DNA of 64,000 nucleotides from Rubrivirga marina (lineage in GTDB: Bacteria > Bacteroidota > Rhodothermia > Rhodothermales > Rubricoccaceae). Below the pieces are notes generated by a model. It searched no databases and was not told where the DNA came from. It saw only the letters and a list, made by a program, of their open reading frames with translations. The stretch's first letter is position 1. Every line of letters starts with the position of its first letter. The position numbers and the translations under genes were made by a program. This document shows positions 49,503 to 56,405 of the stretch, in pieces. Location: NCBI RefSeq assembly GCF_002283365.1, contig NZ_MQWD01000001.1, positions 1,795,395 through 1,859,394 on the forward strand. The letters run 5' to 3'.

Positions 49503-49574
49503 GCCAACGTAGCTCAGGGGTAGAGCAGCTCACTCGTAATGAGCAGGTCGTCGGTTCAAATCCGACCGTTGGCT
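49503..49574 (+). tRNA. tRNA-Thr(CGT), island insertion site
   Basis: A 72-nt cloverleaf: acceptor GCCAACG/CGTTGGC, D arm GCTC/GAGC, anticodon stem GCTCA/TGAGC around CTCGTAA (anticodon CGT, reads ACG), T arm GTCGG-TTCAAAT-CCGAC, discriminator T, no encoded CCA. A tyrosine recombinase begins 163 bp downstream on the same strand, so the 3' half of this tRNA is the likely attachment site. Confidence 0.95.
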
Positions 49575-49737
49575 CCCGAGACCGGCCTCCAGACCCCTGG
49601 AAAGCCGGTCTCTTCGCTTCGGGCTCCCACGCCGACCGCCGTCCCGGCCACCGCCGGGCCCCCGAACGGTCAACATGTGGTCAACGGCCGCCGCCGGTCG
49701 CACGGGGTTCCAAGCGCTGCGACAGCCCCGCAGCCCC

Positions 49738-50796
49738 ATGGCACGGCTCCACCGCTCGAAGGGCAGCTACTACGCCCGGTTCCACGACAAGACGAAGTCG
49801 CCCGCCCGGAAGACGGTCCCTCTCCGGACCCGCGACGAGGCCGCCGCCCGCGCGGCGCTCCGCCGGCTCGAGGTCCACTACGCCGAGGGCCGGTTCGACC
49901 CCTGGGCCCCTCCCGAGGCCCCGCCCACCCGCCTGTCCGAGGCCGTCGCGGTCTTCTTCGAGGCCAAGGCCCACCGGGCCCCGGCGACGCTCCGGCTCTA
50001 CCACACGGTCCTCGACGGGCTCGTCGCGCACGTCGGCGACCCGCTCCTGAGGGACGTCCGGCCCCGCGACGTCCTCGCCTTCCTCGGCGCCCGCGACCTC
50101 AACGACACGGGCCGCGACGCGTACTTCACCCGGCTCAAGGCGTTCTTCCGGTGGTGCCGCCGGCAGGGCCTCGCCGACGACGTGGTGACCGACCGGGTCG
50201 ACGTCCCGCGCGGCCCGCAGGTGTTCCCGCACTGGCTGACTCGGGACGAGTTCGGCCGGCTCGTCGGCGCGATCCGGTCGGCGGCCGGCGAGGCCAACGA
50301 GGGCGAGGTCGCGTGGCTCATCCCGTTCGTCACCGTCGCCGTGTACACCGGGCTCCGGCTCGGGGAGCTCGTCGGGCTCCGCTGGGCCGACGTGGACCTC
50401 GAGTCCCGGCGCCTCGTCGTCCGGAACCGGGCGGCGGCCCGGACCAAGAGCAGGAGGGACCGGTCGGTCCCGCTCGCGGGCCCGGCCGTCCGGGCGTTCG
50501 AGTCGGTGGGGAGAGGGGACCGCGAGGCGCTCGTGTTCGTCGGCGCTGGCGGGGGGCGGGTCAACAAGGAGTACGCGTCGAAGGCGTTCCTCCGGTACCG
50601 CCGGGCGGCCGGCCTCGCCGAGGAGATCCACTTCCACTCGCTCCGCCACACGTGTGCCTCGTGGCTCGTCCAGGGGGGCGTCTCGCTCGTCCGGGTCAAG
50701 GAGGTCCTCGGGCACGCGTCGATCCAGACGGTCATGCGCTACGCCCACCTCGCGCCGAGCACCGCGCTCGACGAGGTGGAGCGGGCGCTCGGGTGA
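49738..50796 (+). CDS. Tyrosine recombinase/integrase
   Basis: A 352-residue site-specific recombinase. An N-terminal arm/AP2-like region (MARLHRSKGSYYARFHDK), a SAM-like core-binding domain (about 62-150: RLSEAVAVFFEAKAHRAPAT), and a catalytic domain with the full set: R207 (YTGLRLGEL), K about 237, H300xxR303 (HFHSLRHTCAS), H326 (VLGHASIQ) and nucleophile Y335 (TVMRYAHLAP). Position right after tRNA-Thr, in the same orientation, implies an integrated element using that tRNA. ATG 49738 begins the arm domain; upstream in-frame codons are not conserved. It converges with a three-gene minus-strand module whose last stop is 18 bp away. Confidence 0.93.
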   Translation: MARLHRSKGSYYARFHDKTKSPARKTVPLRTRDEAAARAALRRLEVHYAEGRFDPWAPPEAPPTRLSEAVAVFFEAKAHRAPATLRLYHTVLDGLVAHVGDPLLRDVRPRDVLAFLGARDLNDTGRDAYFTRLKAFFRWCRRQGLADDVVTDRVDVPRGPQVFPHWLTRDEFGRLVGAIRSAAGEANEGEVAWLIPFVTVAVYTGLRLGELVGLRWADVDLESRRLVVRNRAAARTKSRRDRSVPLAGPAVRAFESVGRGDREALVFVGAGGGRVNKEYASKAFLRYRRAAGLAEEIHFHSLRHTCASWLVQGGVSLVRVKEVLGHASIQTVMRYAHLAPSTALDEVERALG

Positions 50797-50814: not shown

Positions 50815-51354
50815 CTACAGGACGTCGGGGTGGAGGACGACGAAGGCGACCCGGTCGGTGGCCACGACGTTCCTCTCCCCGTCGTCGTCGGTGAACGCGA
50901 AGAACGGGGCGAAGAGGAAGCCCTCGGGGACCGTGTCCGGCAACGTATCGGCGGTCTCGCGTGTCTGGTCGTGGAGGTCGAGCACGCCGACGCCCTCGAT
51001 CCCGATCGTCACGACGGGCGGGGCCCACTCGTGCTCCTCGGCGACCCGCTCCGGGACGGCGACCCCGTAGACGCCGGGCGGGGGAGGCCCCTCGGCCAGC
51101 CCGTACTCGTACGAGTGGGTGACGAGCGTGAGGTGCTCGCGGTCGAGGAGGGCGAGGGAGCCGTCGGCGAGCGGGACGCGGACCCAGAGCGGGGGCTCGT
51201 CCGCCGGCTCCCCGTCGTCGTCGACGGGGAACGTGAGCGCGGCGAGCGTCGCCTCGGCCGCGGCGGCGGACACGCCGAAGGTGACGGGCTCCGGCAGTCC
51301 CTCGAACGTGACGAGGAGGTAGTTCTCGGCGAGCGAGTACGGCCGGAACTCCAT
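50815..51354 (-). CDS. Unknown acidic protein of the island module
   Basis: A 179-residue soluble, acidic protein without recognised family. It opens MEFRPYSLAENYLLVTFEGL and has alternating predicted strands (PVTFGVSAAAAEATLAALTF, WVRVPLADGSLALLDREHL), with an aromatic FLFAPFFAFTDDDGERNVV near the C-terminus. No cysteine, signal peptide or membrane segment. It is the third gene of a minus-strand cluster, 38 bp after the DUF5131 gene, so probably co-transcribed with it and the HTH gene. Could be an accessory or immunity component; this is only positional. Confidence 0.6.
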   Translation of the reverse strand: MEFRPYSLAENYLLVTFEGLPEPVTFGVSAAAAEATLAALTFPVDDDGEPADEPPLWVRVPLADGSLALLDREHLTLVTHSYEYGLAEGPPPPGVYGVAVPERVAEEHEWAPPVVTIGIEGVGVLDLHDQTRETADTLPDTVPEGFLFAPFFAFTDDDGERNVVATDRVAFVVLHPDVL

Positions 51355-51392: not shown

Positions 51393-52229
51393 TTACTCCC
51401 GGCGGGCTCCACGGGCGCTCGTCTTGGCCGCCGCGGCCTGGAGACACGCGTGGCGCATGAACTCCGCGTACCACTCGGGCTCGTCGTCGTGGGTCCGGCC
51501 GTCTAGCTCACGGCCGGCCCGCTTGGTCCCGACGAGGTCGCCCTCGGCGTCGTGTGCGCCCCACTGCTTGAAGTGGAACGCGACGCCCTGCTCGGCGCAC
51601 GCGTCGCGGATCTCGCGGGCCCACTCCGGCCGCATGGGCCGGGCGCCCGCCTCGCCCGGCGTGTGCGAGTCGCTCTCGCCGCCCACGATGGCGTAGTCGA
51701 TGCCGGTGAGGTCGACGTGGCCGTCGGCGTCGAGGACCGAGCCGAGGAGGGGCTCGAAGCTCACGAACGTCCGGCGGGCCCCGCATTCGCGGAGCGCGTC
51801 GAGGCGGTACGAGCGCTCGGCGTCCTCGACCGACACGCCGGCCATGACGTGGTCGCCCCATGGGAGGTGGGGCCCGAGTTCGGCCAGCCGGCGCTCCCGT
51901 TTCGTCAGGACCATGTAGAGGTGCCAGGGCGCCCGGCCCATCGCCTCGAACACCTCGTACACGAACTCGTCCGGGATCGCCTCGTGGAGGAGGTCGCTCA
52001 TCGAGTTGACGAACACCTTCGAGGGAGTGAGCACGCTGGCCGTCGCGTCGAGCGTCCGGGGGTGGAGCGTGACGGCCGTCCCCGCTGCGTACTTGCCGGG
52101 GACGTTGTACTGGAGCCGGCTCTCGACCTCCGAGAACATGTAGCACCGGTCGCAGCCGGGAGAGACCCGCGTGCACCCGGTCGTCGGGTTCCACGTCTCC
52201 TCGGCCCACTCAATCTTCGTCGCGGCCAT
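51393..52229 (-). CDS. DUF5131 / phage Gp37-Gp68 family three-Cys-motif protein
   Basis: A 278-residue protein. The cluster C19-x6-C26-x2-C29 (TGCTRVSPGCDRCYM) follows WAEETWNPTTG and fits a radical-SAM-like Fe-S site; the rest is a TIM-barrel pattern: VFVNSMSDLLHEAIPDEFV (72-90), PWHLYMVLTKRERRL, VMAGVSVEDAERSYRLDAL, FVSFEPLLGSV, YAIVGGESDSH, and the end segment GVAFHFKQWGA. Known in phages and mobile elements and often near genes called three-Cys-motif partners (TcmP); no TcmP is seen here. Reaction unknown. ATG 52229 is taken (MAATKIEW); a longer start at 52307 adds a hydrophobic non-conserved stretch. Confidence 0.85.
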   Translation of the reverse strand: MAATKIEWAEETWNPTTGCTRVSPGCDRCYMFSEVESRLQYNVPGKYAAGTAVTLHPRTLDATASVLTPSKVFVNSMSDLLHEAIPDEFVYEVFEAMGRAPWHLYMVLTKRERRLAELGPHLPWGDHVMAGVSVEDAERSYRLDALRECGARRTFVSFEPLLGSVLDADGHVDLTGIDYAIVGGESDSHTPGEAGARPMRPEWAREIRDACAEQGVAFHFKQWGAHDAEGDLVGTKRAGRELDGRTHDDEPEWYAEFMRHACLQAAAAKTSARGARRE

Positions 52230-52303
52230 CCCGACGGCCGCCACGAGCGCGGCGGCGAGTGCGAGCGGGAGGGGGGCGGCGGTGACGACGGTGACGAGGA
52301 CGA

Positions 52304-53992
52304 TCATTGACGGGAGGACGGGCGGGGGAGGTCGGCTGTGACCGGCGCGGGGGCCCGCTCTGGGGTCTGTTCTGGATCATCGGCGACGCCTGACAGGCCG
52401 TCCCACGGGCGGTGCGGGACGTCGGCCGCCGCGACGAACGCGAGGCCGCGCGGTCTCATCCCGAGGAAGGAGTCGTAGGCCCCGCGGCTCGTCCTCTTGC
52501 CGCGGAGGATGACGGCCGACGCTGAGGCGGGGAGACGGCCGAGCAACTCGTCGGGCAGGGGAGAGGGCCAGCTATCGAGCACCAAGATGCCACGGACCCC
52601 CGCTCTGTCGAACGCGTCGAGCGCGCGACGGGCGGCCTCCACTCCGTCGTCGTCCGCGCCGTCGATGCCGATGGCCGGGTGGACATTGGGTGGCCACGCG
52701 ACCGCGTCGAGCCGGTCGGCGTGCCGTGTGGCGGCGAGGAACGCGAGGTGTTCTCCGGCCCCCGCACGTCGTAAGATCTCGGAGACGACCTCGTCGGGGA
52801 GGTCGGACCGGAGAAGGTCGACGCCCGGGGCTAGGAGGACCGCTCGGGCAGTCGGGAGTCTGAGGTCGAGGGCGTGCGGCCGCGTGTTCGCCGGTTGTGT
52901 GAGCCGCGCCGGGACGTAGCACGGCGGGGCGGCGTCGGAGGCGGGGAACCACGAGGTCGCGCTCCGGAACGGGCCGGGGAGGAGGACGGGCCACGTCCAG
53001 GCGGCCACCTCGGGCTCGAGTCGGCAGCGGGCCATCGACCGTCGTCCCCTGACGTCGCGTCTCTCGATCGGGTCGAGGTCGTCGGTGTCGTCCTCGTCCA
53101 GCGCCCCGACGAGCGGCGAGACGAGGCCGCTCGTCGGCGCGTACGCTGCGAGGTACGAGCCGCCGACCACGCTGAGCGCGGCCGTGGCGTCCGGGCTGGT
53201 GTCCGACCGGTCGAGGAGGTGCCTCTCCAGCAGGACCGTGAGGCCTCCGGGGACGTCGGTGCGTCGTGGAGCCGGTGCGCCCCGTTCGGTGGCGAGCGCT
53301 CGGACGGCCCCGCGGAGCGCGGCTCGGTCGACCGACTTGAGCCGTCCCTCCGCGTCGTACGACGTGTCCGCGTCGGCCTCGTGGGTCGCCCGTCGCCAGA
53401 CCTCCGCTTCGTCGCCCGGGTCGAGCAGCCCGAGGGCCCACCTCGTCTCCCGGTGGAGGTCGTCGGACGGGGCCGGGTTCCCGTCGAGCTCGCGTTCGAG
53501 CGCGGCCAAGCCGAGCCGTGAGGGGAGCGGCTCGGCCCCCGTGCCGAGGACCCCCGCCACGGCGTTGGCGGCGAGCTCGACATCCTCCTGTGTGAGCCGC
53601 GCCTCGTCGCCTCCCGTCGTCTCTAACGCTCGCTCCCATGCCCGGCGGCGGTCGGCGGCTTTGTCGAGCCCCGTGAGCGGCCGGAGCTGGGCCTCGCTGC
53701 GCGGGAGGGGGGCGACGCCCGCCTCCTCGAACTCGGCGTACACGCGGCCCGCCTTCGCGAGCTGGTAAGCTCGTCGGCGCCGGATCCCGAACGTCGCGAG
53801 GGCGAACTCGGCGAACGTGCCGGTCTCTACGTAGAGCTCATCGTCCATGATCGCAGCGAGGGCCCTCGCTGCTTCCACGCTCTTGGCCTGGTACTCCCGC
53901 ACGGTGGCGACGTGGGCGTCGAGGGCGATCCGGTCGGCGTCTGCCAGGCGGCGTTGGACACGGACCTCCGCCGTGGGTATGGGATCGGGCAT
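52304..53992 (-). CDS. ParB-like HTH protein with degenerate DUF5131-like C-terminal domain
   Basis: A 562-residue protein. Residues 55-125 show a plasmid/ICE-type HTH module: GTFAEFALATFGIRRRRAYQ, LPRSEAQLRPLTGLDKA. The middle is helical and acidic. The C-terminal third (about 330-530) appears to align with the neighbouring DUF5131 protein: PHALDLRLP...VLLAPGVDLLRSDLPDEVVSEIL (372-407) against LHPRTLD...VFVNSMSDLLHEAIPDEFVYEVF, then HLAFLAATRHADRL against HLYMVLTKRERRL. At the three-Cys position only one cysteine remains (C358-Y359). Start ATG 53992. It is the first gene of the minus-strand cluster, 74 bp before DUF5131. A DNA-binding partner or adaptor is inferred. Confidence 0.72.
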   Translation of the reverse strand: MPDPIPTAEVRVQRRLADADRIALDAHVATVREYQAKSVEAARALAAIMDDELYVETGTFAEFALATFGIRRRRAYQLAKAGRVYAEFEEAGVAPLPRSEAQLRPLTGLDKAADRRRAWERALETTGGDEARLTQEDVELAANAVAGVLGTGAEPLPSRLGLAALERELDGNPAPSDDLHRETRWALGLLDPGDEAEVWRRATHEADADTSYDAEGRLKSVDRAALRGAVRALATERGAPAPRRTDVPGGLTVLLERHLLDRSDTSPDATAALSVVGGSYLAAYAPTSGLVSPLVGALDEDDTDDLDPIERRDVRGRRSMARCRLEPEVAAWTWPVLLPGPFRSATSWFPASDAAPPCYVPARLTQPANTRPHALDLRLPTARAVLLAPGVDLLRSDLPDEVVSEILRRAGAGEHLAFLAATRHADRLDAVAWPPNVHPAIGIDGADDDGVEAARRALDAFDRAGVRGILVLDSWPSPLPDELLGRLPASASAVILRGKRTSRGAYDSFLGMRPRGLAFVAAADVPHRPWDGLSGVADDPEQTPERAPAPVTADLPRPSSRQ

Positions 53993-54420
53993 GGGCGGCC
54001 GGTGGGTGGACGTGGGCGTAGACGAGCACACGGATGCTACGGAAGCTGATGCGATCTCGGGCTCGTACCATCGGCCTGCTTCACGATGTCCTCTATGCCG
54101 GCTCTGCTCCGGCGCGAACGGCGGCTCCGCTCGGCCGGCCCATGCCGACCGGTTCCGGGGCCGCGCTTTGGCGCCGGGAGTTACGGCCGTGGTTAGGGAG
54201 GCGCTCATGTAGCGGGTTCGATCTCGCGATGCGAGTACTCAAACCCGTGAGTACATTGTCGGTATCCAGTCGCGGTGATCACTCAGTTCTGCGCGGCGTC
54301 CACACGCACGGCGGTCTGCCGGCGACGCTGGCTGAACCGCTCGCCTCGTCCCACGCCGCGATCATCCATGATCGCCGTGCTAAACGAGCCGCGGCCCCGC
54401 CAGCGTCGCCCCAAGGTCCC
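53993..54420. other. 428-bp divergent control region
   Basis: Lies between the ParB-like gene (-) and the Shedu gene (+). G+C is lower than elsewhere around 54180-54300, and third-codon positions there are not GC-biased, so the ORFs crossing it are unlikely to be translated. It holds a 7-bp inverted repeat (54235-54254). No tRNA or other gene is seen. Confidence 0.6.
54235..54254. promoter_or_regulatory. Operator-like inverted repeat before the Shedu gene
   Basis: GTACTCA-AACCCG-TGAGTAC, a perfect 7-bp inverted repeat with a 6-bp spacer, in an AT-richer stretch about 170 bp upstream of the preferred Shedu start. Fits a dimeric HTH repressor site. The nearby HTH protein (53992) is a possible binder, unproven. 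Confidence 0.45.
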
Positions 54421-55557
54421 GTGGAGCTTGTCCAGATCGTGAGGAGTGGAGGCGCGGCGCGGTGCGACGACGTGGTCCTTCGTGAGACCTCGACGACCCG
54501 CCTCGTCTTCCGGGCCGTCCTCGTCGACAACGCCAAGGACGCCGCGCAGCCCGTCCGGGGTTGGATCGTCTCGCAACGGAAGCGGAAGGGCGACGAGTGG
54601 GAGGACCACAACGAGGTCGCGCTCTCGAACATGAGGGCCGGGGAGTGGGTCAAGACGGAGCTCCGCGCCGAGGAGGTCGACAAGCTCGTGCGCCACGTCG
54701 GAGGCCTCTACCGGCTGTACCGGTCGGGCGGGCTCCCGTCGGGGAAGACCCACTTCCTGAAGCTAGATCTCCAGGCTGGAGAGTCCCCCGAGGATCTCGA
54801 GGGCACGGTCAGGACGCTCCTCGCCCTCGGCCGCCGGTCTGGCCTCGACACTTTCGGGAAGGTCGTCGACCTCACGCTCCGCGACGAGGACTCTGCCGAG
54901 GTCGTCCGCCAGCTCGAGCGCCTCGAGGTTTCGACGGTCCAGAAGCTCCAGAGCCTCGCCGGCGTCGCCGCCCTCCGGGCCGCGCTCGACACCTGGGAGG
55001 CGAACGAGGGCAACACGAGCGAGGAGTTCTGGCAGCAGACGTTCAAGGACAACGCGTTCATCCTCTCGCAGGCCTTCAGCGTCCCGGTCCTTCTCATCCA
55101 AGACAAGGCCTACGTCGGCGGGCGTGAGCTCTCGCGCGAGGGGGCGACCGAGCTCGACTTCCTCTACGCCAACCCGATCACAGCGAACGCGGCGTGCGTC
55201 GAGATCAAGACGCCGGCCACGCCGCTCCTCGGCACGCCCTACCGGGGGAAGTCGGGCGGGCGAGTGTACGGTGCGTCCGTCGAGCTCTCGGGCGCCCTGG
55301 CCCAGGTCCGCAACTACCGGTACCGTCTGACGACGGGGTACTCCCACCTCCGGATTGAACGCGAGGGGGAGTTCGAGGTGGCCGCGCCCCGCTGCCTCAT
55401 CGTGGCAGGCCATGCCGGCTGCAGCCTAGGCGATGACGACGCGAAGAAGCGCTCCTTCGAGGCCCTCCGTGGCGGACTCGCCGACATCGACGTGATCACG
55501 TACGACGAGTTGTTCGAGCGCGTACGGTCCCTCTGCTGCCTCCTCGAGGGTACATAG
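54421..55557 (+). CDS. sduA: Shedu anti-phage nuclease (SduA, DUF4263)
   Basis: A 378-residue (from GTG 54421) Shedu-type protein. The N-terminal part (1-190) is the family-typical mixed domain (LVFRAVLVDNAKDAAQPVRG). The core begins with NTSEEFWQQTFKDNAFILSQ (198-217). The PD-(D/E)xK nuclease site is ELDFLYAN with D246, then VEIKTP with E261 and K263, and ALAQVRNYRY with Q295. Shedu is an established single-gene anti-phage defence whose nuclease is regulated by its N-terminal domain. In-frame ATG 54229 would add 64 residues with neutral third-position composition across an operator-like repeat, so the later start is preferred; the exact start is uncertain. Confidence 0.85.
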   Translation: MELVQIVRSGGAARCDDVVLRETSTTRLVFRAVLVDNAKDAAQPVRGWIVSQRKRKGDEWEDHNEVALSNMRAGEWVKTELRAEEVDKLVRHVGGLYRLYRSGGLPSGKTHFLKLDLQAGESPEDLEGTVRTLLALGRRSGLDTFGKVVDLTLRDEDSAEVVRQLERLEVSTVQKLQSLAGVAALRAALDTWEANEGNTSEEFWQQTFKDNAFILSQAFSVPVLLIQDKAYVGGRELSREGATELDFLYANPITANAACVEIKTPATPLLGTPYRGKSGGRVYGASVELSGALAQVRNYRYRLTTGYSHLRIEREGEFEVAAPRCLIVAGHAGCSLGDDDAKKRSFEALRGGLADIDVITYDELFERVRSLCCLLEGT

Positions 55558-55793: not shown

Positions 55794-56405
55794 ATGGCCA
55801 TCCTCGGAACAGCGTACCACGAAGCCGGCCACGCCGTCGTCGACTTCGACCACGGCAACCTCGCCGGCACCGTCACCATCGTCCCTGACGCCGACCGCCA
55901 CTCGGCGGGGTCGTCCCAGGCCGAGGAGTGGGACAGCGGCCTGGGCGAGGGGAGCACCGGCGACGACGGGGTCGCGGCGATCGAGGCGAAGGTCGTGGCG
56001 CTCTACGCCGGTCTCGAGGCGGAGCGGCTGGTCGACCCTGGGGCCGTCGTCGGGGCCGGCGATGATTACGAGAAGGTCCAGTGGCACGCGGACCTCGCGG
56101 GGCTCGACGACGTGGCCTTAGACGCGCTCCGCCACCGGGCCGCCGAGCACGTCGCCCGACGGCGGGACGTCATCGCCCGGCTCGCCCGCGTGCTCGTCGA
56201 CCTCCAGACGCTCGACCAGTTCCAGGTGGAGTGCGTCATCGAGGGCGAGCCATTCCGGACGGGCAACTCGCTCCGGAGCCCGCTCTACACAGCCCACCTC
56301 AGCGAGGGCGCTCAGCGGCGGTATGAGGAGGCGCGGTCCCGACCCAAACAGCGGGTCCACATCCCGCCGTTCGACCCCGACGACCCGACAGAGGCAACGC
56401 TTTAG
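55794..56405 (+). CDS. Stand-alone M41 (FtsH-like) metallopeptidase domain
   Basis: A 203-residue soluble protein whose N-terminus is a peptidase M41-like zinc site: AYHEAGHAVVDFDHG with H9-E10-x-x-H13, and VGAGDDYEKVQ (86-96), the counterpart of FtsH GASNDFERAT, giving the third ligand D91. There is no AAA+ ATPase or membrane anchor. Such proteins occur sporadically in phages and mobile elements; function unknown, perhaps a small processing protease. ATG 55794 lies just before the motif. It follows the Shedu gene by 236 bp, in which no further gene is seen. Confidence 0.75.
   Translation: MAILGTAYHEAGHAVVDFDHGNLAGTVTIVPDADRHSAGSSQAEEWDSGLGEGSTGDDGVAAIEAKVVALYAGLEAERLVDPGAVVGAGDDYEKVQWHADLAGLDDVALDALRHRAAEHVARRRDVIARLARVLVDLQTLDQFQVECVIEGEPFRTGNSLRSPLYTAHLSEGAQRRYEEARSRPKQRVHIPPFDPDDPTEATL

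Follow-up and report, generated by a model that had tools for sequence, protein, structure and literature searches.

Proteins of the DUF5131 or 'phage Gp37/Gp68' family (PF07505) are common on phages and plasmids, and are without known function. The family itself, fused DUF5131 proteins, and TcmP pairs are already known kinds. In the TcmP-DUF5131 pairs (TIGR04474; PADLOC candidate defence systems PDC-M30/PDC-M41), a stand-alone DUF5131 protein is accompanied by a partner with a DNA-binding-type winged helix-turn-helix (HTH). The TcmP found beside other stand-alone DUF5131 proteins matched TIGR04474 (E 4.6e-57) and the winged HTH family PF22560 (E 1.4e-17). Among the fusions, the Streptomyces protein WP_328743619.1 (L095) carries, ahead of an intact DUF5131 domain, an N-terminus that resembles ParB (TIGR00180 at E 2.9e-5, under the cut-off). 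Given these TcmP pairs and this ParB-like fusion, DUF5131 recurs with DNA-binding parts. A literature search for DUF5131 returned nothing but, as bioRxiv was outside its scope, this absence is weak evidence.

The locus described here lies in the window, i.e., the whole 64,000-nucleotide stretch of Rubrivirga marina DNA that was analyzed. It encodes a 304-aa protein that is a full member of the family and, next to it, a 562-aa protein whose C-terminal domain is homologous to the family and is, by its sequence, a pseudoenzyme domain. As far as searched, there is no prior description of a fused copy that has lost its active site and is maintained next to an intact enzyme.

The two-gene unit and its setting

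The coordinates and gene assignments given to both genes by the first-pass annotation were correct. The features of the locus are the following:

49503..49576, forward strand: tRNA-Thr(CGT)
49675..50796, forward strand: tyrosine integrase (PF00589, E 1e-34), adjoining tRNA-Thr
50815-51294, reverse strand: uncharacterised third gene, just downstream of the DUF5131 gene, without convincing family match
51393..52307, reverse strand: intact stand-alone DUF5131 protein, 304 aa (PF07505, E 6.9e-77)
52143..52175, reverse strand: three-cysteine motif C45-x6-C52-x2-C55-Y of the 304-aa protein
52304..52307, reverse strand: 4-nt ATGA overlap of the two genes, which holds if the longer 304-aa start is used
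52304..53992, reverse strand: 562-aa protein, with an N-terminal HTH-like region, a linker and a C-terminal degenerate DUF5131 (pseudo-radical-SAM) domain
52463..52507, reverse strand: motif LRGKRTxxxAYDSxL of the 562-aa protein (residues 496-510), common to the G415 relative, replacing the end of the family's GGES strand
52463..53044, reverse strand: degenerate DUF5131 domain of the 562-aa protein (residues ~317-510)
53543..53935, reverse strand: N-terminal region of the 562-aa protein (residues ~20-150), HTH-like by eye
54034-55557, forward strand: Shedu SduA defence gene, oriented divergently to the two-gene unit (Pfam domains SduA_N and SduA_C; PADLOC E 1.7e-101)
55794-56405, forward strand: small protein lacking an ATPase domain, matched in part by the FtsH/M41 peptidase family at a score under the cut-off (Pfam E 3e-5)

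Residues 1-26 of the 304-aa frame are hydrophobic and are missing in the relatives, which start MGETNIQW or MSNLSAIEW, so M27, at 52229, may be the true start of this protein. The start of SduA is probably also later than annotated, as the domain match begins at residue 138.

Since the integrase and tRNA-Thr genes adjoin it, the two-gene unit is placed in an integrated element. The 3' 53 bp of the tRNA gene (49523-49575) have an exact copy ~72.7 kb downstream (G000:C1:1917600-1917652, L189), where no tRNA gene is present. Within the window, no clear flanking direct repeat was found, the att partner lying outside it. These 53-bp repeats are probably the attL and attR of a ~72.7 kb genomic island, with the integrase at 49675-50796. 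A role of the pair in phage infection is suggested only by context, namely the tRNA-integrated island and the adjoining Shedu gene.

The 304-aa protein scores 258.7 bits against PF07505, for a gathering cut-off of 28.9, and its three-cysteine motif and further family-invariant residues are present (C45, C52, C55-Y, S, D, LTK, EP, GGE, and K). Its Fe-S motif is C-x6-C-x2-C, versus the canonical CxxxCxxC, and its score against TIGR04471 (rSAM mobile pair A) is 60.6 bits, below the equivalog cut-off of 355. The structural model (pLDDT 84.9, pTM 0.84) finds its best solved matches in spore photoproduct lyases (Z 13.1 over 207 residues, 3.3 A), followed by viperin-like enzymes (Z 10.9) and RlmN (Z 10.8), and its top structural matches are radical-SAM enzymes (Z 13.1 to 9.4). 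The protein is thus, going by the model, a probable radical-SAM enzyme. A nucleic-acid substrate is plausible because spore photoproduct lyase is the best structural match, bearing in mind that a shared fold does not prove function. A sequence search of the PDB with the 562-aa and 304-aa proteins gave chance matches only.

The degenerate domain of the 562-aa protein

Direct BLASTP comparison of the two neighbours gives a collinear match between residues 381-471 of the 562-aa protein and 94-182 of the 304-aa protein (E 5e-4). The profile-profile check proposed by the first-pass annotation was significant: with relatives added, hhalign relates the dead domains to the fused DUF5131 domains (98.7%, E 3.6e-16) and to the stand-alone ones (96.9%, E 2e-10), and the window domain alone matches the fused set (94.9%, E 4.6e-8). 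A profile built from 80 intact DUF5131 domains gives the window domain 14.6 bits, and the best of 3000 shuffles 3.4. The dead domain of a relative from genome G415 (protein P0008) scores 28.1 bits against the intact-only profile (best shuffle 10.3), and that of a relative from G344 (protein P0005) is, alone, weak (2.0 bits, with 5/3000 shuffles as good), this protein being joined to the family via fused relatives (E 1e-9). P0008 matches the 562-aa protein over residues 317-510 (E 1e-17), with 38% identity in the domain core, and, at E 2e-11, P0009, a fused protein with an intact DUF5131 domain. In Pfam itself, the 562-aa protein has no DUF5131 match up to E 10 and lies below the gathering cut-off, and P0008 gives E 0.053 (13.5 bits). 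When the degenerate profile was run over 395 genomes of the phylum, almost all matches were known DUF5131 genes.

Homology to DUF5131 is demonstrated over residues ~357-500, a segment which is a diverged DUF5131 domain sharing common ancestry with the family. The alignment of the C-terminal third with the neighbour, noted by eye for residues 330-530, is therefore firm as to homology but ends near residue 500. The shared blocks DLL-PDE-V, HL-x5-T, and RL are real, and the R-x-x-A-x4-G-x-R helix is present, although one residue out of register.

The catalytic site has been lost, as had been proposed. All three cysteines are absent from the DUF5131 domain of the 562-aa protein, the Fe-S loop being deleted, and all three dead proteins, when aligned with intact domains, are missing the segment C-x3/6-C-x2-C-Y. 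Taking as invariant the residues more than 85% conserved among 80 intact DUF5131 proteins, the dead domains have altered or lost C, C, C, N, S, K (of LTK), E-P, G, and the C-terminal K; D246 (alignment column) is the only invariant residue kept in all three. The pair C358-Y359, read earlier as the surviving end of the cysteine motif, does not fall on it in the profile alignments. The window segment A-P-P-C358-Y359-V-P-A-R-L aligns ungapped to F-x-P-x-x-x-P-x-R-L, which lies downstream of the Fe-S loop in the fused proteins (FVPTLHPARL, FEPVLLPGRL), so that C358-Y359 falls on the V-L of PVLLPGRL. The other two dead proteins have T-L or S-F at this position, and no cysteine. One MAFFT run did pair C358 with the third cysteine, but had to open a ~20-residue gap before PxRL to do so. 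We read the resemblance of C358-Y359 to the Fe-S motif as a coincidence of sequence.

The model of the dead domain is confident only in its core (residues ~374-500). Foldseek retrieves viperins as its best matches in the PDB and VIA-align mixed TIM barrels (Z 8.1 or less) but, as this model was built from the DUF5131 alignment, such matches are not independent evidence.

The N-terminal region has no significant Pfam, NCBIfam, or PDB profile match, so that its helix-turn-helix is not confirmed by profile; no NCBIfam match of any part of the protein was obtained up to E 10, TcmP (TIGR04474) included. The 562-aa protein is, judging by sequence, probably DNA-binding. Its N-terminal region is common to P0005 (E 1e-11) and to cyanobacterial plasmid proteins (L002-L006), a family of 270-360 aa that is annotated as hypothetical and shows no annotated DUF5131 neighbour.

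Recurrence and origin of the pair

A gene for an N-terminal region plus dead domain, immediately followed by an intact DUF5131 gene, occurs in three genomes including that of the window, all within one order. In G415, P0008 is followed by the intact DUF5131 protein P0007 (gap of 33 nt) and, in G344, P0005 by P0006 (gap of a few nt). In both genomes, the gene adjoining the dead protein is the only DUF5131 gene above the Pfam cut-off. The pairing of a dead-domain protein with an intact enzyme, first noticed in the window, is thus a kept arrangement. In the tree, the window and G415 stand-alone partners group as sisters (100/99), as do the corresponding dead domains (97/98); therefore, the two genes have been inherited as a unit. 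On its upstream side (L040:7426-10662), the G344 pair has a type I restriction R-subunit-like helicase and an unknown protein of 280 aa, again a defence-island setting.

Using sequence patterns, no relatives of the 562-aa protein were found in phages or viral contigs. On plasmids, matches cover the N-terminal region only and no dead example was found, and two scans of the genome_contigs set with degenerate-domain alignments, whose peptide patterns were narrow, gave no confirmed case. In one viral contig, a complete fused-type DUF5131 is accompanied, ~3 kb away, by a second piece of this type that is truncated (L162:8293-8757).

Related intact fused proteins have the domain order of the dead ones. 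P0003 (G328) couples an intact DUF5131 domain to an N-terminal region similar to that of the window protein (E 6e-11). P0004, encoded at a second locus of the window genome (G000:C1 ~208.9-210.9 kb), is likewise fused, its N-terminus matching that of P0008 (E 1e-8), while in P0009 (G135) the intact domain follows a different N-terminus, ParB-like by eye. These fused proteins keep the three cysteines, spaced C-x3-C-x2-C in P0003 and P0009 and as the variant C-x3-C-x4-C in P0004. No separate DUF5131 gene lies close to them and, in G328 and G135, the genome has no DUF5131 besides the fused protein. At the second locus of the window genome (L037:3928-5886), an integrase gene and one for a probable replication protein lie close to the fused gene.

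The likeliest origin of the dead domain, from these sequences, is the decay of a fused enzyme after catalysis came to be supplied in trans. The tree gives the dead domains, with their long branches, no firm placement, so descent is argued from domain architecture. A decayed fused enzyme is the simplest course because the N-terminal half is common to intact fused proteins and the scores are higher to the fused subfamily.

Local duplication, which the first-pass annotation favoured, is less likely. The neighbouring gene would have been copied and fused to a DNA-binding region before the Fe-S site was lost, leaving an inactive partner that shares its origin with the enzyme. The adjacency of paralogues in three genomes fits this course, and the AU test does not reject placing the dead pair with the enzymes beside it (p 0.48), any more than placing it with the fused clade (p 0.41). 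Nevertheless, the N-termini are shared with intact members of the fused subfamily (P0002-P0003, E 6e-11; P0008-P0004, E 1e-8), the degenerate profile gives 47-54 bits on fused domains against at most 34 on stand-alone ones, and P0005, which lacks any BLAST match to its own neighbour, matches the fused P0003 at E 1e-9.

Proposed function and comparison with known systems

The reading we prefer, to which we assign a probability of about 0.5, is that the locus encodes a split DUF5131 module, in which a dead barrel would dock a separate catalyst and the N-terminal region would place it on DNA. The 304-aa protein, with its radical-SAM-type barrel and intact three-cysteine Fe-S site, would be the catalyst. 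The 562-aa protein would derive from a fused enzyme made of the N-terminal region and DUF5131, whose Fe-S loop and active-site residues would have decayed once the stand-alone enzyme had assumed catalysis. The dead barrel may have been retained as a docking surface, probably in a heterodimer, and the N-terminal region may bring the enzyme to mobile-element or invader DNA, where the docked enzyme could modify or repair a base. The support for this is indirect, coming from the winged HTH and ParB-like parts that accompany or are fused to other DUF5131 proteins. That the dead copy positions the working enzyme is suggested by the two other genomes that keep the same pair. More tentatively, and with the odds against it, the pair may form a DNA-acting radical-SAM system of two components, whose dead barrel, fused to a DNA-binding region, would recruit the active paralogue and position it on mobile-element or invader DNA.

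It is doubtful that the 562-aa protein is instead a regulator of the operon or element, its dead barrel sensing SAM, a nucleotide, or the enzyme product and delivering no enzyme. A probably DNA-binding N-terminus, a gene upstream of that of the enzyme, and a divergent Shedu gene across a common intergenic region would all suit such a regulator, but intact fused relatives join the same N-terminal region to a catalytic domain, which favours targeting over transcriptional control. Least probable of all is that the C-terminal domain is a non-functional remnant, retained only because the N-terminal region is needed: most conserved residues are indeed gone, but the dead domain always adjoins an intact enzyme, and the open frames long kept by the window and G415 at 38% domain identity, together with their new shared motif LRGKRTxxxAYDSxL, argue for a function.

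If the split module is real, the dead copy with its fused-type N-terminus, beside a separate enzyme, would constitute a natural experiment splitting targeting from catalysis. DNA would then be indicated as the workplace of DUF5131, which is directly testable, and the radical-SAM superfamily would count an unusual pseudoenzyme partner.

Compared with the stand-alone enzymes of PF07505, the 562-aa protein falls below the Pfam cut-off and is without the three cysteines. Its domain order is that of the HTH/ParB-like fusions to DUF5131 (P0003, P0004, P0009, and the Streptomyces L095 protein), the N-terminus of P0003 being common to the window and G344 proteins and that of P0004 to the G415 protein. 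The dead proteins differ from these fusions in their missing cysteines and in having a separate DUF5131 gene beside them. The TcmP pairs likewise combine a stand-alone DUF5131 protein with a partner, but TcmP has no match to DUF5131 profiles, and no match to TcmP or PDC-M30A/M41A was obtained with the 562-aa protein. Spore photoproduct lyase, a radical-SAM DNA repair enzyme, is the best structural match of the 304-aa model, but at 11-12% identity; to our knowledge, it has no partner of the dead-twin kind.

Dph1 and Dph2 are paralogous subunits. They form a radical-SAM heterodimer (PMC11048331), and a prozyme is a pseudoenzyme partner (PMC5201418). Such heteromers of paralogous subunits provide, by analogy only, a working model for the 562-aa/304-aa pair. 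In Dph1-Dph2, each subunit has an Fe-S cluster, whereas the 562-aa protein has its site deleted and carries, in addition, a probable DNA-targeting region.
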